From Microlunatus sagamiharensis (GTDB lineage: Bacteria; Actinomycetota; Actinomycetes; Propionibacteriales; Propionibacteriaceae), in the NCBI RefSeq assembly GCF_900105785.1, contig NZ_LT629799.1, positions 682,001-746,000 on the forward strand: a stretch of DNA of 64,000 nucleotides, given 5' to 3'. Of the stretch, positions 7,193 through 34,278 are shown one piece after another (the first letter of the stretch is position 1; each line of letters begins with the position of its first letter). The notes under the pieces are model-generated. The model had not been told where the DNA came from and ran no database searches. It was given only the letters and a program-made list of their open reading frames with translations. The position numbers and the translations under genes are program-made.

Positions 7193-8722
7193 TCACCCGG
7201 TCGAGCCGTGGCCGCTCGAGGGTGGGGTCCGGACGAGGTAGCCGCCCACGTCGGCGAGCACGGGCCAGCGCGCGATGGTGGCGCGCGTCCGGCTGCTCAG
7301 CCCCGGCTGCCTCCGGAACCGGACGACCACGGCGGTGCTCCCGGCCGCCAGGTGGCTGCGGAGGAAGTCCTGCCACTGCGCGTTCTCCGCCCGCCCGGTG
7401 TGGTGGTCGGCCCCGGGGCGGAGGTCGTAGGAGTAGCCGCCGGGGTCGACGACCACGGGGCAGCGGCGGTCGAGGTTCCGTCCCAGGGCCCCGGTCTCGA
7501 TGAGCAGGACCGGGTCGTCGGTCGTCACGCACCCGGGCCGGGCCGCGAGGACCCGGTCCAGGCTGCGGCCCGGGAAGCGGCTCCCGAAGGTCAGCCCCGG
7601 CAGAGACGCCGCCCCGTACGCGAGCAGGCCCGCGACGACCACGGCGACGACGACCGGGCGCCCGCGGACGGAGCGGCGGGCCAGGCGCGCGACGCCCGAG
7701 CCGACGAGCAGGACGACCGCCGGCGCGGCGAGACCGGTGTAGGCGACCGACCACGGCGGGGAGAGCAGGAGGACGGCCCCGGTGACCGCGAGGAGCACGC
7801 AGGCGAGCCGCCCGAGCGGGTCCCGGAGCGCGAGGACGACGAGGACCGCGAGCAGGACGGCTGCCGCCGCGGCTAGGGCCTTGGTGCTCGTGATCCCGCG
7901 CAGCTCGGAGAACCCGGCCAGGTCGACCAGACGGCCGGCGAGGCCGCCGTCGACGCGCGGGCGGCCCAGCTGGTCGGAGACGACCATGCGCCACATCGCG
8001 CCGGGGGCGGCGAGGAAGAAGGGGAGGCAGACGACCGTCGCCCCGCCGACGGCGCCCGCCAGCACGAGGCCGGCGCGACGCGGCCCGACCCGGGCGACGG
8101 ACCAGGCGACGACCGCGAGCACGACGGCGGCGCCCCAGATCTTGGTGCCGGTCGCGACGCCGAGCAGGGCCTCGGCCGCGACGAGCGGCGCGGCGGCGCG
8201 CTGCGGCGCCCCGGCCGGACGGAGCAGGGCCAGGGCGCCGAGCAGGCACACCGAACCGACCGCCTCCAGCGACGTCGTGTGCTCGCTGACCACGGCGGGC
8301 ACGAAGACGGCGTAGCAGCCGGCCGCCGCCACCGCGGGCAGCAGCCCGCGCGGACGGAAGACGGCGAAGACCAGGGCCGTGCTCGTCGCGCCCAGCCCGA
8401 ACCAGGCGAGCCGGGCCGCCGCGAAGCCGTTCGCGTCGCCCAGCAGGCGGCCGAGCCCGGCGAAGGGCAGCAGGGCGGGCACGATGCCCGGCGGGTACAG
8501 CAGGAGGAAATCCCGGTACGGCAGGAGCCCGTGCGCGAGAGCCGCCGCCGCGGCGTAGTAGACCGACCCGTCGTAGCCGATCCGGCCGAAGAGCCCACCG
8601 CCCCGCAGCACCGTCTCGAGCCGGACGGCGAAGGCCAGCAGCGCGAGGCCCAGGGCCCACACCCACGTCGCCGCACGCGCAGGCGGGGAGCCGGCCACCT
8701 CCGGAAGGACGCTCGACGACAC
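7193..8722 (-). CDS. Polytopic membrane glycosyltransferase (GT39/GT87-like)
   Basis: This 509-residue integral membrane protein has about ten hydrophobic segments. The first extracytoplasmic loop carries GYDGSVYYAAAAALAHG and then YRDFLLLYPPG, the acidic-loop arrangement typical of polyprenyl-phosphate-sugar-dependent transferases. The C-terminal ~130 residues form a soluble domain. Such enzymes glycosylate cell-envelope lipids, polymers or proteins from the outer face of the membrane. The GTG at 8722 is chosen because GAGGAGG lies five bases upstream; the frame continues open far upstream only as a shadow of the COG4705 gene. The substrate cannot be read from the sequence. Confidence 0.82.
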   Translation of the reverse strand: MSSSVLPEVAGSPPARAATWVWALGLALLAFAVRLETVLRGGGLFGRIGYDGSVYYAAAAALAHGLLPYRDFLLLYPPGIVPALLPFAGLGRLLGDANGFAAARLAWFGLGATSTALVFAVFRPRGLLPAVAAAGCYAVFVPAVVSEHTTSLEAVGSVCLLGALALLRPAGAPQRAAAPLVAAEALLGVATGTKIWGAAVVLAVVAWSVARVGPRRAGLVLAGAVGGATVVCLPFFLAAPGAMWRMVVSDQLGRPRVDGGLAGRLVDLAGFSELRGITSTKALAAAAAVLLAVLVVLALRDPLGRLACVLLAVTGAVLLLSPPWSVAYTGLAAPAVVLLVGSGVARLARRSVRGRPVVVAVVVAGLLAYGAASLPGLTFGSRFPGRSLDRVLAARPGCVTTDDPVLLIETGALGRNLDRRCPVVVDPGGYSYDLRPGADHHTGRAENAQWQDFLRSHLAAGSTAVVVRFRRQPGLSSRTRATIARWPVLADVGGYLVRTPPSSGHGSTG

Positions 8723-8834
8723 CCTGACCTCCTCGGTGCCCTCCGGGTGAGGACGCCCGATCGTCCGCCGCCGCGCCTGTGCAGGAACTGAACGCGCCGT
8801 CTCGACGGGCCCGCGGGCACGGACCACCGCTCGG

Positions 8835-8850
8835 TTCAGGCCGTTCTCAG
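8835..8850 (+). promoter_or_regulatory. Response-regulator box 2 (TTCAG-N6-CTCAG)
   Basis: TTCAG-GCCGTT-CTCAG lies 52 bases before the GTG of the COG4705 membrane protein at 8903, in the gap shared with the divergent glycosyltransferase. It matches the two-repeat consensus found upstream of the response-regulator gene itself. Confidence 0.6.
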
Positions 8851-8902
8851 CGGACCGACGCGAGGGTCCTCGCACCATCACCGCCACCGCAGGAGGAACC
8901 TC

Positions 8903-10150
8903 GTGACCACCACCACCGTGAACGCACCGCCGGGCCGACGCGCGCTCTGGCAGACCAAGGTCCCCCTCATCACGGCCACCTTCTGGGTGATCAAGGTCCT
9001 GTCGACGACCGTGGGCGAGACGTTCGCCGACTTCCTCGCCGTGAACGTCGGCCTGGGGCCGGTCGTGACCGACCTCGCGATGCTGGCCGTCCTGGCCGTC
9101 GTCCTCACCCTCCAGCTGCGCCGGACGCGCTACACCCCGTGGGCCTACTGGTCGTCCGTCGTGCTCGTCAGCATCGTCGGCACCCAGCTCACCGACTTCT
9201 TCACCGACACGCTCGGCGTCAGCCTCTGGGTGAGCACCGCCGTGTTCGCGGTCGTCCTCGCCGTCGTCTTCACCGTCTGGTACCGCCAGGAGCACACCCT
9301 GGCCATCACCTCGGTCGACACCCCGCGCCGGGAGCGCTTCTACTGGGGCGCCATCCTCGTCACCTTCGCGCTGGGCACCGCCGCGGGCGACCTCGCCACG
9401 GAGGCGCTGAGCCTGGGCTTCCGCAACGGCGTCTGGATCTTCGGCGCGCTGATCGCCCTCACCTACCTCGCGCGTCGTCTGGGCGCGAGCGCCGTGGTCA
9501 CCTTCTGGGTCGCGTACGTCCTGACCCGACCGCTCGGCGCGTCCCTCGGCGACCTGCTCACCCAGGACACCTCGCTCGGCGGGCTGGGGCTGGGTGCCAG
9601 CCTGACCAGCGTCCTCTTCCTCGCCGTGATCGTCGTCCTGGTGGCCCGCGAGCAGCGGCTGGTCAACCGGTTCGGCGTGGCCGAGAAGGGGTCGGGGCCG
9701 CTCGGCGGGCGGCGCCGCGACCTCGGCTGGGCCCTGGGCGGAGCCGTCGGCATCACCGTGCTCGGCGTGGTGCTCGCCGGCCTGCACCCGGCGACGACCG
9801 CCTCGGCGGGCGGCGCCGCCGGTGCCCCCGTGCCGGCCGGGAGCCCGGCGGTGCACCCGACGACCGGTCTCGGCGACCTCAGCCGGTTCTCGGCGATGGT
9901 GTCGTCGGTGCAGGCCAAGATGGCGCAGGACGACCTCGTCGGGGCCAAGGCGAACGTCAAGGACCTCGAGGTGGCGTGGGACAGCGCCGAGGCCGGGCTC
10001 AAGCCTCGCGACCCCAAGGACTGGAGCACGCTCGACGGCCAGATCGACGACGTGCTGACCACGCTGCGCGCCGGGAGCCCGGTCCAGGCCGACTGCGCCG
10101 CGGCGTTGTCCACGCTCTCGACGACGCTGAGGACGTTCGACGGCGGCTGA
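8903..10150 (+). CDS. COG4705 membrane-anchored protein with C-terminal extracytoplasmic domain
   Basis: The 415-residue protein begins with the COG4705 membrane domain (about residues 15-260): KVPLITATFWVIKVLSTTVGE, two internal halves, FALGTAAGDLATE, and FWVAYVLTRPLGAS. This family was named for a proposed link to amylopullulanase regulation, but its function is unknown. Unlike its shorter paralogue at 15479, it has a further ~120 residues with one membrane span (about 275-292), a Ala/Gly/Pro linker and a helical domain near the end. The GTG at 8903 has AGGAGG eight bases ahead. A response-regulator box lies 52 bases upstream, so it is probably part of that regulon. Confidence 0.75.
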   Translation: MTTTTVNAPPGRRALWQTKVPLITATFWVIKVLSTTVGETFADFLAVNVGLGPVVTDLAMLAVLAVVLTLQLRRTRYTPWAYWSSVVLVSIVGTQLTDFFTDTLGVSLWVSTAVFAVVLAVVFTVWYRQEHTLAITSVDTPRRERFYWGAILVTFALGTAAGDLATEALSLGFRNGVWIFGALIALTYLARRLGASAVVTFWVAYVLTRPLGASLGDLLTQDTSLGGLGLGASLTSVLFLAVIVVLVAREQRLVNRFGVAEKGSGPLGGRRRDLGWALGGAVGITVLGVVLAGLHPATTASAGGAAGAPVPAGSPAVHPTTGLGDLSRFSAMVSSVQAKMAQDDLVGAKANVKDLEVAWDSAEAGLKPRDPKDWSTLDGQIDDVLTTLRAGSPVQADCAAALSTLSTTLRTFDGG

Positions 10151-28410: not shown

Positions 28411-28775
28411 TCAGGCGGCGCGTGCCCCGATCTGGCTGCGGAGCGCGATCACGCCGTCGCGGACGCGGCTCTTCACCGTCCCCACGGGGACGTCGAGCAG
28501 CGTCGCGGCCTCCTGCATGGTGTGGCCGTGAGGTAGGTCAGGGTCACGGCGTTGCGCTGCTTGTGCGGCAGCCGGTCGACGGCGCCGCGGATGCCCCTGG
28601 CCTCCTGCGCGTCCACGACGGCCTCGGCGACGTCGCCGGTGGTCTCGCCGGTTCGATGGAACTCCCTCTGGTCCCGCAGCACCGCGCTCGTCACCGAACG
28701 CACGCGGTCCACCGCACGGCGGTGGGTCAGCATCAGCAGCCAGCTGAGCACGGACGCCTTCGCCGGGTCGTACGT
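28411..28775 (-). pseudogene. 3' remnant of a SigK-like RNA polymerase sigma factor
   Basis: The minus strand encodes the C-terminal two-thirds of an ECF sigma factor close to the intact one at 42084. It has SVLSWLLMLTHRRAVDRVR (region 2.4), then GAVDRLPHKQRNAVTLTYL and, in another frame, GHTMQEAATLLDVPVGTVKSR with the terminal IGARAA (region 4). The frame breaks near 28528, where one base is missing compared with the paralogue. Sequence identity ends abruptly around 28775, so the N-terminal third and the promoter are absent. The remnant abuts a 5'-truncated desaturase on the opposite strand. Confidence 0.85.
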
Positions 28776-28782
28776 CAGCGCG

Positions 28783-29572
28783 TGCGCTGGAACGACTGGA
28801 CGAGCCTGGTCGTCGCCAACCTGCTCGTCGGCATCAGCTACGGCTGGTGGCAGAGCAAGCACACCCGCCACCACGCCCGGCCCAACACCGAGGGCCACGA
28901 CCCCGACCTCGACATTGCGGCCGTGGCCATGACCCCGGCCATGGCGACGCGGCACCGGCACCCGCTCCTGCGCCGGCTCGTCGCCCACCAGGGCCGGTAC
29001 TTCTTCCCGCTGCTGCTGCTCGAGGGGCTGTCCCTCCACGTGGAAGGGGTCAAGCGCGTCACGTCGCGCGGACCCGTGCCGCGACGCCTCGTCGAGGCCG
29101 GGTTCCTCGCCCTGCGGCTGGGCGGCCTGCTGGCCCTCGTGCTGCTGATCCTGCCGCTCGGCAAGGCGGCCGCCGTCCTCGGCGTGGAGGTCGGGCTGTT
29201 CGGGCTCTACATGGGCTCGGCCTTCGCGCCCAACCACATCGGCATGCCGCTGGTGCCGCCCCGCCTCAAGCTCGACTTCCTCCGGCGCCAGGTCCTCACC
29301 AGCCGCAACGTCTCCGGCGGGTGGTGGCTGTCGGTCGCGATGGGCGGGCTGAACCACCAGGTCGAGCACCACCTCTTCCCGTCCATGGCCCGTCCGCACC
29401 TGCGTCGGCTGGCGCCGCTGGTCCGGCCCACTGCGCTGCCGAAGGCGTCCCGTACACGCAGACCGGCCTGCGGGCTGCGTACCGCGACGTCCTCGACCAC
29501 CTCGACACCGTCGGGGTCAAGGGCACCGACCCGTTCCTGTGCCCGCTCGTCGCGCAACGACGGGCGCTCTGA
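28783..29572 (+). pseudogene. 5'-truncated fatty-acid desaturase with a frameshift
   Basis: The plus strand encodes a membrane fatty-acid desaturase from just after the first histidine box. It has LLVGISYGWWQSKHTRHHARPN (second box HTRHH), several membrane spans, FAPNHIGMP, and GLNHQVEHHLFPSM (third box). The first box HDxxH and everything before it are missing. Near 29427 the frame shifts: the conserved C-terminus (HCAAEGVPYTQTGLR to the stop at 29570) is in the next frame and is restored by one inserted base. The gene is therefore broken twice. It should be non-functional unless the frameshift is a sequence error and another start is used. Confidence 0.85.
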
Positions 29573-29799: not shown

Positions 29800-30468
29800 G
29801 TGCCCACCGTCCTGTTCGGGTCCATCAGCACCGTCGCCGACACGTCCGAGCTGCAGCGCGCCGCCTTCAACCAGGCGTTCGCCGACCACGGTCTCGACTG
29901 GCGGTGGGACCGCGACGAGTACGCCGCGCTGCTGACCGGCGCCGGGGGGCGCGACCGCATCGCCTCGTACGCGGCGGAGCGCGGCGTCGACGTCGACGCC
30001 GACGCCGTGCACGCGACGAAGTCGTCGCTCTTCCAGCGCTCGCTGGCCACCGCCGACCTGGCGGCGCGTCCCGGCGTGCTCGACACGGTTCGCGGGGCCA
30101 AGGGCGCCGGGCTCAAGGTCGGCTTCGTCACCTCCACCTCGGCCGAGAACGTCGCCGCGGTGCTCTCCGCCCTCGGTCCGGAGCTGGGTGCGGACGACTT
30201 CGACGTCATCACCGACTCCTCGACGGTGCCGGCCACCAAGCCCGACCCCGCGCCGTACCTGACGGCGCTGTCGGCGCTGGGGGAGAGCGCCGAGCAGTGC
30301 GTCGCGATCGAGGACAACGTCGACGGCGTCGCGGCCGCCCGGGCGGCGGGAGTGGCGTGCGTCGCCTTCCCGAACGACAACACCGCGGGCCACGACTTCT
30401 CCGCCGCGCAGAGCCGGGTCGACCACCTCGAGCTCGCCCAGCTGCGCTCGCTCATCCCCGCCTCCTGA
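29800..30468 (+). CDS. HAD-fold protein lacking the usual nucleophile
   Basis: The 222-residue protein follows the HAD subfamily IA fold. Motif II is VTSTS (about 108-112), motif III the Lys of ATKPDPAPY, and motif IV AIEDNVDGVAAA. Motif I, normally DxDGT, reads FGSIST, so the nucleophile Asp and the second Asp are both replaced. A phosphatase of the standard mechanism is therefore unlikely; a binding or isomerase-like role, or a changed active site, must be considered. GTG start with GAGGAGAT upstream. It heads the TauD-MysC-MysD set, separated from TauD by 114 bases that contain a strong hairpin. Confidence 0.8.
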   Translation: MPTVLFGSISTVADTSELQRAAFNQAFADHGLDWRWDRDEYAALLTGAGGRDRIASYAAERGVDVDADAVHATKSSLFQRSLATADLAARPGVLDTVRGAKGAGLKVGFVTSTSAENVAAVLSALGPELGADDFDVITDSSTVPATKPDPAPYLTALSALGESAEQCVAIEDNVDGVAAARAAGVACVAFPNDNTAGHDFSAAQSRVDHLELAQLRSLIPAS

Positions 30469-30473
30469 GCCGG

Positions 30474-30504
30474 GCGCGTCCCGCCGCCCGGCGGCGGGAC
30501 GCGC
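30474..30504. terminator. 13-base-stem hairpin between the HAD and TauD genes
   Basis: GCGCGTCCCGCCG (30474-30486) pairs perfectly with CGGCGGGACGCGC (30492-30504) around the five-base loop CCCGG. It starts six bases after the HAD stop. With no T-tract it may be a terminator, a partial attenuator, or a processing signal that sets different levels for the HAD and the TauD-MysC-MysD messages. Confidence 0.55.
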
Positions 30505-30582
30505 ACCAGACCCGTCGAACCGTCCGCCCCGGCACCCGGCGGGCGCCCCCGCGCGGACCCCCGCGCACGCCCCAGGAGAACC

Positions 30583-31377
30583 ATGATCATCACCCGGACC
30601 GAGCCGCTCGGCGCCCGCGTCGAGGACGTCGACCTCACCCGCCTCGGCGACGACGACGTGTCCGCGCTGACCGGGCTGCTGGCCGCGCAGGGCGTCGTCG
30701 TCTTCCCCGGCCAGCGGCTCGACGACGCCGAGTTCACCGCGTTCCTGCGGCGCTTCGGACGGCTGGTCTTCACGGTCGGGGAGACCCCGGTCCCGGACCA
30801 CCCCGACCTCAACGTGATCAGCAACGTCGGGCGCACCACCGCACCGAGGAGCACGTTCCACGTCGACTCGAGCTACTTCGCCGCCCCGCCCGCGTACACG
30901 GCGCTGCGGACCGTCACGGTGCCCCGCGAGGGCGGGCAGACCGAGTTCAGCAACCAGTACCGCGCCCACGACACGCTCGAGGCCGGACTGCGCGAGCGGC
31001 TCGAGGGTCGCACCCTGACCCACGTGGTGACCGGGGTCGAGCTGTCCGACGACGACGAGTCCTCCGCGGTCCACCCGCTGCTGCGTCGCCACCCGGTCTC
31101 GGGGCGCACCTCGCTCTACCTCACCACCCCGGCGCGGTGCGCGAGCATCAGCGGGCTCGACGCGGAGCAGACGAAGGAGCTGGTCGAGCGCCTGTACGCG
31201 CACTCGACGCGCCCGGACAACCTCTACCGCCACGCCTGGGCCGAGGGCGACGTCGTGATGTGGGACAACGGGTGCGTGCTCCACCGGGCCGACCACTCCG
31301 GCGTCGTCGGGGACCGGGTCATGCACCGGGGCATGGCGACCGGCTACGCGACCGCCGACCCCGGTCTGCTCGTGTGA
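30583..31377 (+). CDS. TauD/TfdA-family Fe(II)/2-oxoglutarate dioxygenase
   Basis: The 264-residue enzyme has the iron-binding facial triad: His93 and Asp95 (TFHVDSS) and the distal His234 (CVLHRADH). The 2-oxoglutarate-binding Arg is near 249 (MHRGMA). GVVVFPGQ and the opening EPLGARVEDVDL match TauD/TfdA enzymes that hydroxylate small acids such as taurine or 2,4-D. ATG 30583 follows CAGGAGAA. Its stop overlaps the start of the MysC-type gene, so the two are translated together. A role in making or tailoring a mycosporine is inferred from position only. The known mycosporine oxygenase MysH belongs, as far as I recall, to a different (PhyH-like) branch. Confidence 0.88.
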   Translation: MIITRTEPLGARVEDVDLTRLGDDDVSALTGLLAAQGVVVFPGQRLDDAEFTAFLRRFGRLVFTVGETPVPDHPDLNVISNVGRTTAPRSTFHVDSSYFAAPPAYTALRTVTVPREGGQTEFSNQYRAHDTLEAGLRERLEGRTLTHVVTGVELSDDDESSAVHPLLRRHPVSGRTSLYLTTPARCASISGLDAEQTKELVERLYAHSTRPDNLYRHAWAEGDVVMWDNGCVLHRADHSGVVGDRVMHRGMATGYATADPGLLV

Positions 31378-32747
31378 CCACCTCCGCGCCGCCCCGGGTC
31401 GGGGCCGGCGTCCCCGACGCGCCCACCGGAGCCGACCGAGGCCGTCGGGCCGCTGCCGTCGGCAAGACCCTCGGTGCGCTCGGGCTGCTCCAGCTCGCGC
31501 TGCCGCTGAACGCGGCCGTCAGCGCCGTGGCCCTGGCGTACGCCGCCGTCGTGCCCCTGCGGCGCGCCGTGGCGACGACGCCGAGGACGATCATGGTCAG
31601 CGGCGGCAAGATGACCAAGTCGCTGCACCTGGCGCGCGCGTTCCACCAGGCCGGGCACCGGGTGGTCATGGTCGAGTCGGAGAAGTACCGCTGGACCGGC
31701 CACCGCTTCTCGAGGGCGGTCGCCGCGTTCCACACCGTGCCCGACTCCCGCTCACCGGCGTACGCGGAGGCGCTCGCCGAGGTCGTCCGCGCCGAGGGCG
31801 TCGACGTCTACGTCCCGGTCTGCAGCCCGGCGGCGAGCTACCACGACGCCGCGGCCAAGTCCGCGCTCGAGGGCCTCTGCGAGGTCGTCCACCTCGACGC
31901 CGAGGTGGTGGCGGCGCTCGACGACAAGCACATGTTCGCCGAGCTGGCCGCCTCGCTGGGCCTGCCCGTGCCCGACTCGGTCCTCGTCACCGATCCCGAC
32001 GAGGTCGTCGGCGCGCTCGCGACGCGGGAGGGGCCGTACGTGCTGAAGAGCATCGCGTACGACCCCGTGCACCGGCTCGACCTCACGCCCCTGCCGCGGC
32101 CCACGGTCGAGGAGACGACCGCCTTCGCGCGCGCCCGGCCGATCACGCCCGACAACCCGTGGCTGCTGCAGCAGCTGGTGACCGGAGAGGAGTTCTGCGC
32201 CCACGCGACCGCCCGGCGCGGGGTCGTCCAGGTCTACGCCTGCTCGGCGTCGTCGGCCTTCCAGGTCAACTACGCCTCCGTCGACGAGCCGGCGATCGAG
32301 ACGTGGGTGCGGACGTTCGTCGCGGCCCTGGGGCTCACCGGCCAGGTGTCGTTCGACGTGATCAAGACCGCGGACGGGCAGGTGCACGTGATCGAGTGCA
32401 ACCCGCGGACCCACTCGGCGGTCACGATGCTCGACGACCCGGTGGCGCTGTCGCGCGCCTACCTCGAGGACGGTGTGCCGACGGTGCGGCCATGCGCGAC
32501 GAGCAGGCCGACCTACTGGCTCTACCACGAGGCGTGGCGACTGCTGGCCGAGCCGGGCCGCCGGGCCCGGCTCCGGACGATCGCGGCCGGCACCGACGCG
32601 ATCTTCGCCTGGTCCGACCCGTTGCCGTTCCTGCTGGAGCACCACCTGCAGGTCCCGCGGCTGCTGCTGGCGAACCTGCGCCGCGGCCGGGGCTGGATCC
32701 GCATCGACTTCAACATCGGCAAGCTGGTCGAGGCCGACGGTGACTGA
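31374..32747 (+). CDS. mysC: MysC-type ATP-grasp ligase (mycosporine-glycine synthase)
   Basis: MysC activates 4-deoxygadusol with ATP and joins it to glycine, giving mycosporine-glycine. This 457-residue protein has the family length and landmarks. After a hydrophobic N-terminal segment (about 33-62) come MVSGGKMTKSLHLARAFHQAGHR, ESEKYRWTGHRFS, VDVYVPVCSPAASY, VLKSIAYDPVHRLDLTPLP, GEEFCAHATARRG, SSAFQVNYASVD, and the metal-site IECNPRTHSAVTM, followed by SRPTYWLYHE. The GTG at 31374 overlaps the TauD stop by four bases, and the 3' end overlaps the MysD-type start by eight. The family call rests on recalled similarity to cyanobacterial and actinobacterial MysC. Confidence 0.85.
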   Translation: MTTSAPPRVGAGVPDAPTGADRGRRAAAVGKTLGALGLLQLALPLNAAVSAVALAYAAVVPLRRAVATTPRTIMVSGGKMTKSLHLARAFHQAGHRVVMVESEKYRWTGHRFSRAVAAFHTVPDSRSPAYAEALAEVVRAEGVDVYVPVCSPAASYHDAAAKSALEGLCEVVHLDAEVVAALDDKHMFAELAASLGLPVPDSVLVTDPDEVVGALATREGPYVLKSIAYDPVHRLDLTPLPRPTVEETTAFARARPITPDNPWLLQQLVTGEEFCAHATARRGVVQVYACSASSAFQVNYASVDEPAIETWVRTFVAALGLTGQVSFDVIKTADGQVHVIECNPRTHSAVTMLDDPVALSRAYLEDGVPTVRPCATSRPTYWLYHEAWRLLAEPGRRARLRTIAAGTDAIFAWSDPLPFLLEHHLQVPRLLLANLRRGRGWIRIDFNIGKLVEADGD

Positions 32748-34278
32748 GGTCGGTCCGGGCGTGGAGCGCCCGCTCCGGGTGCTCCACCTGGTCGGCTCGG
32801 CGGTCGACGACTTCCACGCCGACCTGTCGCGGCTCTACGCGGGCGACTGCCTCCGCTCGACCGCCGACCCGGCCCACCGGAGCGACCACGTCGCGTGGGT
32901 CGAGCCCGGCGGGACCTGGCGCTTCCCCGCCGACCTGTCCCGAGAGGCCCTCGCCGGCGCTCCCGTGCTGACGCTCGCGCAGGCGCTGGTCCGACTCGAG
33001 GAGCTGGCGCCCGACGTCGTGGTGCCGCAGATGTTCTGCCGGCCCGGCATGACCACCTACCGCGCGCTCGTCGAGCTGCTCGGGCTCCCGATGGTCGGCA
33101 ACCCGGCCGAGGTGATGGCGCTGGCCACGGACAAGGCCCGCACGCGCGCGGTGGTCGCGGCCGCCGGCGTCGCGGTCCCCGACGGCGAGGTGCTCCGGCC
33201 GGGCGAGCGGCCGACCCTGCTGCCGCCGGTCGTGGTCAAGCCGGTCGACGCGGACAACTCCGACGGCGTGAGCCTGGTCCGGTCCGAGGCCGAGCTCGCG
33301 GGTGCGCTCGAGGCCGCCTTCCGCCTCGGGCGCGAGGTGCTCGTGGAGGCGTACGTGCCCCTGGGCCGCGAGGTCCGCTGCGGCGTGCTCGAGCGCGGGG
33401 AGGAGCTGGTCTGCCTCCCGCTCGAGGAGTACGCCGTCGACGAGGTGACCAAGCCCGTCCGGCTGGCCGACGACAAGCTGCGCCGGGATCCCGACGGCGA
33501 GCTGGCGCTGGTGGCGAAGTCCGTGACCCACGCCTGGATCGTCGACCCGGCCGACCCGGCCGACCCGGTCGTCGCGGGCGTCCACGCGGCCGCCCGTGCG
33601 GCGCACCGCGCGCTCGGCTGCCGCGACTACAGCCTCTTCGACTTCCGGATCGACCCGGACGGCGGCGTGTGGTTCCTCGAGGCGGGCCTCTACTGCTCGT
33701 TCGCCCGGCAGAGCGTCGTCCCGACGATGGCCGAGGCCGCGGGGATCGCGCTTCGGGACCTGTTCCGCGCCGCGCTCGCGGGCGCGGCGGGACGCGGTCG
33801 AGGGACCGTCCCCCCGGAATGGGGCGCCTCCGCACGGCGTTCCCCGGCCATGGGCACGTCCGACTTCGACCTCACCCTCCAGGCCCTCGGGGCCGCTCGC
33901 CGGAACGGTCCCGAGTCGGCCTACCGGACCGCGTACGACCTGCTCGCGCAGCGCTCGCCGGCCGAGGCCCTGGAGGTCATCGAGCCCGCTCTCGAGCAGG
34001 ACCCGCGCAACACCGGCCTGCGGTCGCTGCGTGCCTGGGCGTTCATGATGCGCGCGCAGCTGCACAAGGCCGAGGCCGAGCTGCGGGGGCTGGTCGAGGA
34101 CACGCCCGACGACCTGTGGTCGCGGCACGCGCTCGGGCGGGTGCTCGAGCGCCAGAGCCGGTTCCAGGAGGCCCTGCCGCACCTGCGGCTCGCGGCGGTG
34201 ATGAGCGGGGACCTCGAGCGCGAGGTCGACGCGCTCCGGGTCGAGCGGCTGATCATGACGAGTCGCGAGAACGACTGA
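32740..34278 (+). CDS. mysD: MysD-type ATP-grasp ligase with C-terminal TPR domain
   Basis: MysD (D-Ala-D-Ala-ligase-like) condenses mycosporine-glycine with serine or threonine, giving shinorine or porphyra-334. Residues about 10-360 carry the MysD signatures: VLHLVGSAVDDFHADLSRLY, PQMFCRPGMTTYRALVELL, VVVKPVDADNSDGVSLV, VEAYVPLGREVRCGV, LPLEEYAVDE, YSLFDFRIDPDGGVWFLEAGLYCSF. The protein then continues in frame through a Pro/Arg/Ala linker into about 140 residues of tetratricopeptide-like helices (371-512; EALEVIEPALEQDPRN, HALGRVLERQSRFQEALPHL). MysD proteins normally end near residue 340-350, so the tail is unusual. An internal ATG at 33850 has no ribosome site. Confidence 0.85.
   Translation: MTEVGPGVERPLRVLHLVGSAVDDFHADLSRLYAGDCLRSTADPAHRSDHVAWVEPGGTWRFPADLSREALAGAPVLTLAQALVRLEELAPDVVVPQMFCRPGMTTYRALVELLGLPMVGNPAEVMALATDKARTRAVVAAAGVAVPDGEVLRPGERPTLLPPVVVKPVDADNSDGVSLVRSEAELAGALEAAFRLGREVLVEAYVPLGREVRCGVLERGEELVCLPLEEYAVDEVTKPVRLADDKLRRDPDGELALVAKSVTHAWIVDPADPADPVVAGVHAAARAAHRALGCRDYSLFDFRIDPDGGVWFLEAGLYCSFARQSVVPTMAEAAGIALRDLFRAALAGAAGRGRGTVPPEWGASARRSPAMGTSDFDLTLQALGAARRNGPESAYRTAYDLLAQRSPAEALEVIEPALEQDPRNTGLRSLRAWAFMMRAQLHKAEAELRGLVEDTPDDLWSRHALGRVLERQSRFQEALPHLRLAAVMSGDLEREVDALRVERLIMTSREND

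Follow-up and report, generated by a model that had tools for sequence, protein, structure and literature searches.

Gene clusters for mycosporine-like amino acids (MAAs) that include a HAD-superfamily gene and a TauD gene have already been described in actinobacteria, in a 2025 preprint (PMC11888242). In its passage on a Rhodococcus operon with both genes, this source states, citing unpublished work, that the operon gives shinorine, palythine and palythine-serine. In Nostoc, a TauD/TfdA dioxygenase, MysI, is proposed for palythine formation in the section of PMC10510106 that deals with it. A Rhodococcus fascians mysABC construct, as summarized in PMC11284840, leads to mycosporine-glycine in Streptomyces; since mysABC suffices there, HAD is dispensable for the mycosporine-glycine step in that setting. 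Here we analyze a stretch of 64,000 nucleotides from Microlunatus sagamiharensis (contig NZ_LT629799.1, positions 682,001 to 746,000; "the window" below), in which a HAD gene and a TauD gene stand next to two ATP-grasp genes, and MysA and MysB are missing. On balance, we consider it probable that this locus represents a mycosporine pathway that operates without a recognizable sedoheptulose-7-phosphate cyclase or MysB, either as a salvage or remodelling module or as the downstream half of an undiscovered, non-homologous route.

Judged by sequence comparison, the two ATP-grasp proteins are MysC and MysD, as a preliminary description of the locus had assigned them. In a search of 72,556 plasmid records, the best match of both was one and the same stretch of Nostoc sp. 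HK-01 plasmid1 (52% identity for MysC, 54% for MysD), where a 3-dehydroquinate (DHQ)-synthase-type MysA and an O-methyltransferase MysB lie ahead of the matched genes. The NCBIfam model PRK06849 gives the window's MysC 401 bits, just below its cut-off of 406, and the Nostoc MysC 560 bits. In a rapidly computed tree of MysC-MysD concatenates (61 rows), the window's pair and that of Microlunatus flavus are joined with support 100 among actinobacterial sequences, so that the ATP-grasp proteins do not fall outside MysC/MysD; the deep forks of such trees are weak, and the place of the Microlunatus pair within Actinomycetota is not fixed by them. The actinobacterial clusters surrounding the pair carry mysB, and also mysA wherever the contig extends. 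Thus, the locus has a MysC-type ATP-grasp and, in the form of MysD, a ligase for the second amino acid.

The absence of MysA and MysB, noted earlier for the immediate surroundings of the ATP-grasp genes, extends to the entire genome, which is a single contig of 4.4 Mb. With 16 MysA and MysB proteins as queries, no homologue was found in the window (best E-value 0.15), and no convincing remnant of mysA or mysB was seen either there or beside the M. flavus cluster (E-value 0.009 over 44 residues, L006). Genome-wide, no MysA was detected: the DHQ-synthase Pfam family, Nostoc MysA and an eight-row MysA alignment all find one and the same protein. This sole family member is AroB, which scores 338 bits against the NCBIfam aroB cut-off of 305 and adjoins chorismate synthase, aroC. 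In M. flavus, searches with a single protein and with the eight-row alignment likewise revealed no MysA and one AroB-level match. The same picture emerged for 20 genomes of the genus, where AroB-level matches occur in all and MysA-level matches in none (best E-value 6e-37 with the eight-row alignment; for comparison, the Nostoc query finds the MysA of genome G034 at 2e-162). As for MysB, none was found in the window's genome, where a single MysB query at best retrieves a 26%-identical stretch and the eight-row profile reaches an E-value of 1e-15. That level is attained in 19 of the 20 genus genomes, the best value (1e-35) coming from one without MysC (G009). No MysB was detected in M. flavus with the eight-row alignment. 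After these protein and alignment searches, the idea of a MysA or MysB hidden elsewhere in either genome was rejected.

We next consider how unusual this state is. A scan of genome contigs with a MysC alignment retained the best 80 of 110 relatives, of which 64 with at least 3.5 kb upstream and at least 2.5 kb downstream of mysC were counted. MysA and MysB are both present in 63 of these 64 loci, the exception being M. flavus. Among the 16 loci excluded for short flanks, nine show MysA and MysB, two show only MysB (MysA lying past the contig end), and four have the contig start within 300 bases of mysC. The remaining one belongs to Nostoc sp. NMS7 (L069), where no mysA or mysB match was seen in the 8 kb upstream of mysC (8010-9362) and the contig ends just downstream. 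Within the genus, the cluster was found in two of the 20 genomes, those of the window and of M. flavus, both without mysAB. An order-wide sample contained MysC in 17 of 391 genomes. In 15 of them MysB adjoins, with MysA also present wherever the short locus reaches, and the other two are again the Microlunatus pair. In a phylum sample MysC was seen in seven of 396 genomes, and the five not already covered all have an adjoining MysB; in both samples, scoring covered only the few best candidates of each genome. The history that needs the fewest assumptions is that the Microlunatus line lost mysAB, with the absence resting on comparison and the direction on parsimony: a six-gene HAD-MysA-MysB-TauD-MysC-MysD cluster would have lost mysA and mysB before the two species diverged.

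The preliminary description had HAD and TauD standing in place of MysA and MysB, and this part of it does not hold, since both co-occur with MysA and MysB across Actinomycetota. Of the 32 Actinomycetota loci whose flanks were long enough, all 32 carry HAD, 28 carry TauD, and 31 carry MysA together with MysB, the usual gene orders being HAD-A-B-TauD-C-D and HAD-A-B-C-D-TauD. Given these frequencies, HAD and TauD are standing members of the cluster, from which mysAB dropped out. With cluster-type HAD and TauD beside MysC and MysD, the locus is of the actinobacterial HAD/TauD type. The same frequencies speak against HAD and TauD being accidental neighbours, an outcome envisaged earlier. That the two proteins supply the core instead of MysA and MysB agrees with their position at the mysAB site, and yet is highly improbable: they occur alongside MysA and MysB in most of the Actinomycetota loci examined (both in 28 of 32), HAD is without a nucleophile, and to our knowledge neither fold cyclizes sedoheptulose 7-phosphate. 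We accordingly rejected HAD and TauD as replacements. The notion of HAD as a strict partner of TauD was also weakened, as four of the 32 loci have HAD without TauD. A genome-wide search (E-value 1e-20) in the genomes of these four, all Actinomycetospora, and in G034, yielded no cluster-type TauD, only matches of 31-35% identity or none; two positive controls gave 61%.

The HAD protein is atypical, as had been recognized. Its best PDB matches are structures of CbbY (4uat and 4uar, E-value 1e-39). CbbY is a xylulose-1,5-bisphosphatase. Where CbbY reads FDVDGT, the window's protein reads FGSIST, with Gly and Ile at the two catalytic Asp positions. It therefore does not have the motif I DxD, with its nucleophile and acid aspartates, that marks HAD phosphatases. 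The substitution is general among cluster HADs: GS[IL] occurs in 41 of 41 others and DxDG in none of the 41. These counts come from simple patterns run over the loci as far as L111, after removal of 15 that were duplicates or not clusters; locus ends cut some of the rows. HAD is thus probably not a phosphatase. A separate occurrence concerns a Roseobacter litoralis plasmid, where an aspartate-less HAD reading FGSIGT (L123, 4986-5657) has genes of Trk potassium uptake and of L,D-transpeptidase as neighbours, with nothing annotated for MAAs in the 10.6 kb stretch. The pseudo-HAD family is therefore wider than MAA clusters, and the motif is not specific to them.

The TauD protein carries HVD and WDNGCVLH, which may correspond to the HxD...H motif of Fe(II)/2-oxoglutarate enzymes. 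The HxD pattern was matched in 41 of 45 locus TauDs, at least one match (L103) being due to chance. Identity of the window's TauD is 84% to M. flavus and mostly 47-68% to other mycosporine-cluster TauDs, with one partial match at 33% (L040). The plasmid TauDs among the 30 matches listed of 435 records are all distant, at 31-35% identity. On the cyanobacterial side, four loci (L014, L015, L018 and L053, three of them contigs of metagenome-assembled genomes by title) have HAD and TauD beside mysABCD, and another (L056) has HAD alone. These run counter to the statement in PMC11888242 that HAD and TauD are absent from Cyanobacteriota. G034, which has a full MAA cluster, also encodes a second MysA-like cyclase, about 40% identical to MysA (L092); a HAD match (32%) follows some 0.7 kb downstream.

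Are the four remaining genes still in use? Between the window and M. flavus, the ratio of nonsynonymous to synonymous substitution rates (dN/dS) is 0.28 for HAD, 0.23 for TauD, 0.24 for MysC and 0.23 for MysD, with dS values of 0.34-0.54 and no internal stops in either species. The housekeeping genes compared gave a dS of 0.45 and a dN/dS of 0.17 for AroB, and 0.46 and 0.08 for AroC; wrong-frame rows in that comparison had ratios mostly above 1, a few not. The four genes are under purifying selection, less tight than that on AroB and AroC. Since their dS resembles that of AroB and AroC, the loss of mysAB appears to date back to the divergence of the species. For the same reason, the comparison did not support the cluster having passed recently from one species to the other, although the flanks differ. 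At the level of individual residues, the columns at least 97% conserved in other loci are retained almost completely: 98 of 100 in MysC, 77 of 78 in MysD, 65 of 66 in TauD and 49 of 49 in HAD. In nine control clades bearing mysAB (some members of which, L016 and L061, show mysB only, the contig ending before mysA), zero to four conserved columns are changed in MysC and zero to two in the others, so that the Microlunatus pair lies within their range. Taken together, these comparisons make the four genes look functional, with the substrate unchanged.

Purifying selection and the retained columns argue against both decay and a new substrate. A decaying relic, in which mysAB has gone and the remainder is being lost, would fit the rearranged-looking surroundings (a truncated sigma-factor gene and a desaturase remnant upstream, and MysD running into a TPR gene) and the presence of the cluster in just two of 20 genus genomes. 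Against it stand four open reading frames maintained in two species at the substitution levels given above, and we regard it as improbable. About equally improbable, if anything slightly more so, is a change of substrate, whereby MysC and MysD would join amino acids to a different cyclic diketone or acid, giving a non-mycosporine product. It would account at once for the loss of both core genes, but it has to contend with MysC and MysD columns kept within the range of the control clades, and with a cluster beside which neither a MysA/MysB remnant nor an evident new core-making gene was seen. Of the possibilities raised in the preliminary description, a core obtained from elsewhere or by another route thus remains the best reading, and a different acid is disfavoured.

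By analogy with relatives, the gene products would act as follows. MysC would activate 4-deoxygadusol with ATP and add glycine to form mycosporine-glycine, to which MysD would add Ser or Thr, giving a shinorine- or porphyra-type MAA. TauD may then hydroxylate the amino acid side chain, which would subsequently be lost to leave a palythine-type MAA. Because AroB is the only member of its family in the genome, no sedoheptulose 7-phosphate cyclase of the known kind would make the 4-deoxygadusol here. The compound's most likely source would be uptake from neighbours or breakdown of environmental MAAs, making the locus a salvage or remodelling module, in which all four genes would still be working, as selection suggests. 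We put at about an even chance the specific proposal that this is a core-less mycosporine module, derived by loss of mysAB and supplied with 4-deoxygadusol from outside. HAD would most likely have no catalytic function and assist the MysC/MysD/TauD half by binding or as a partner, because it was kept when MysA and MysB were gone. As it is retained without MysA and MysB and, in the four loci mentioned, without TauD, a non-catalytic role together with MysC and MysD is the best guess.

Alternatively, the cell itself might make 4-deoxygadusol by an unrecognized route, such as one from 3-dehydroquinate that relies on AroB and an unlinked methyltransferase, or one with non-homologous enzymes. Conservation and constraint of the four downstream proteins and the presence of AroB agree with this, as does a link of the shikimate route to MAA formation in Anabaena, reported in the portion of PMC7693272 concerned with it. 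On the other hand, the cluster holds no candidate gene, and the 26%-identical MysB match is at the level seen in 19 of the 20 genus genomes, 18 of the 20 being without MysC. Moreover, a hydroxymethyl group can be obtained from the carboxylate of dehydroquinate only through additional steps. Own synthesis seems to us unlikely, while deserving more weight than relic or substrate change.

Several points weigh against the externally supplied module. An AroB-dependent route to MAAs, also needing an O-methyltransferase, has reportedly been proposed in cyanobacteria, and such a route may provide the Microlunatus core. No uptake gene was identified; Pfam searches of five neighbouring genes showed no transporter, and transporters were not searched for systematically. 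Import of finished MAAs would make MysC superfluous. Although well below 1, the dN/dS values of the cluster exceed those of AroB and AroC, and several of the nine control clades change fewer MysC columns than the Microlunatus pair, five of them none. The state is known from two genomes only. The surroundings of the cluster differ between these genomes, so that the cluster moved or its flanks were rearranged. Finally, the window's MysD has no stop of its own and reads on in frame into the TPR gene.

The layout of the locus (Table 1) agrees with the preliminary description as to four rightward genes with overlaps between TauD, the first and the second ATP-grasp, which we confirmed from the open reading frames (four bases for TauD/MysC, eight for MysC/MysD). 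Pfam assigns HAD, TauD, a weak ATP-grasp, and a D-Ala-D-Ala ligase C-terminus plus TPR. The last frame does extend to 34278, as described earlier, but MysD homology stops near residue 354, and what follows is the TPR domain.

Table 1. Features of the Microlunatus sagamiharensis mycosporine locus (window coordinates)
Feature	Position	Strand	Evidence
HAD-superfamily protein, CbbY-like, catalytic Asp absent; conserved accessory gene of actinobacterial mycosporine clusters	29800-30468	+	Pfam, PDB match, motif
HAD-TauD gap, where related six-gene clusters carry mysA-mysB; remnant of neither gene seen	30469-30582	.	Locus comparison, remnant search
TauD/TfdA Fe(II)/2-oxoglutarate oxygenase of the mycosporine-cluster type; putative role in palythine formation, like MysI/MysH	30583-31377	+	Pfam, motifs, identities
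MysC, predicted ATP-grasp 4-deoxygadusol:glycine ligase	31374-32747	+	PRK06849, Nostoc HK-01 identity, tree
MysD, predicted D-Ala-D-Ala-ligase-like mycosporine-glycine:amino acid ligase	32740-33849, homology ending near 33800	+	Pfam, Nostoc HK-01 identity
TPR protein, continuing the MysD frame without an intervening stop; C-terminal fusion or separate gene with its own (possible) ATG	33850-34278	+	Pfam, open reading frame

The MysD-TPR region (33800-34278) may encode a fusion protein. The M. flavus homologue of TPR (70% identity) is on a different contig from the cluster, and TPR is therefore not a regular part of it. Directly upstream of HAD (28420-29572), translations inspected by eye reveal the C-terminal part of a sigma factor on the minus strand abutting a fatty acid desaturase-like sequence, the latter with its start missing and a frame change near 29420. 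This junction is likely a recombination scar.

The locus amounts to a natural deletion experiment on MAA biosynthesis, separating the core-making half (MysA-MysB) from an independently selected HAD-TauD-MysC-MysD half, and this separation suggests a role for HAD once the core has been formed. Should the cells depend on 4-deoxygadusol from outside, precursors of MAAs would be a resource shared within microbial communities; should they produce it on their own, there is a further route to the core. The literature consulted (titles and beginnings of abstracts, with subscription journals mostly outside) contained no description of an MAA cluster whose genome is devoid of both MysA and MysB. Searches that demand MysA and MysB overlook such clusters. 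One of these, that of PMC11888242, demanded DHQ-synthase- and O-methyltransferase-type genes; since both core gene types were required, it is not expected to return the mysAB-less form.

Compared with known systems, HAD resembles CbbY in family and overall sequence, but the cluster HADs are without both DxD aspartates. The canonical mysABCD cluster of the Nostoc sp. HK-01 plasmid (L005) is similar in MysC and MysD, at the identities given above, but differs in having mysA and mysB, and in the 25 kb examined neither HAD nor TauD was matched. Nostoc sp. UHCC 0926, according to the cluster description in PMC10510106, has mysAB elsewhere in its genome, yet offers a parallel in a mysD-mysC2-mysC3 group without adjoining mysAB and in MysI, to which the window's TauD is likened by family description. 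Closest are the actinobacterial HAD/TauD clusters of the GATOR-GC preprint (PMC11888242), such as that of Rhodococcoides fascians A44A (L035): in the clusters as presented there, mysA and mysB lie between HAD and MysC, unlike in the two Microlunatus, and HAD, TauD, MysC and MysD form a contiguous group in both.

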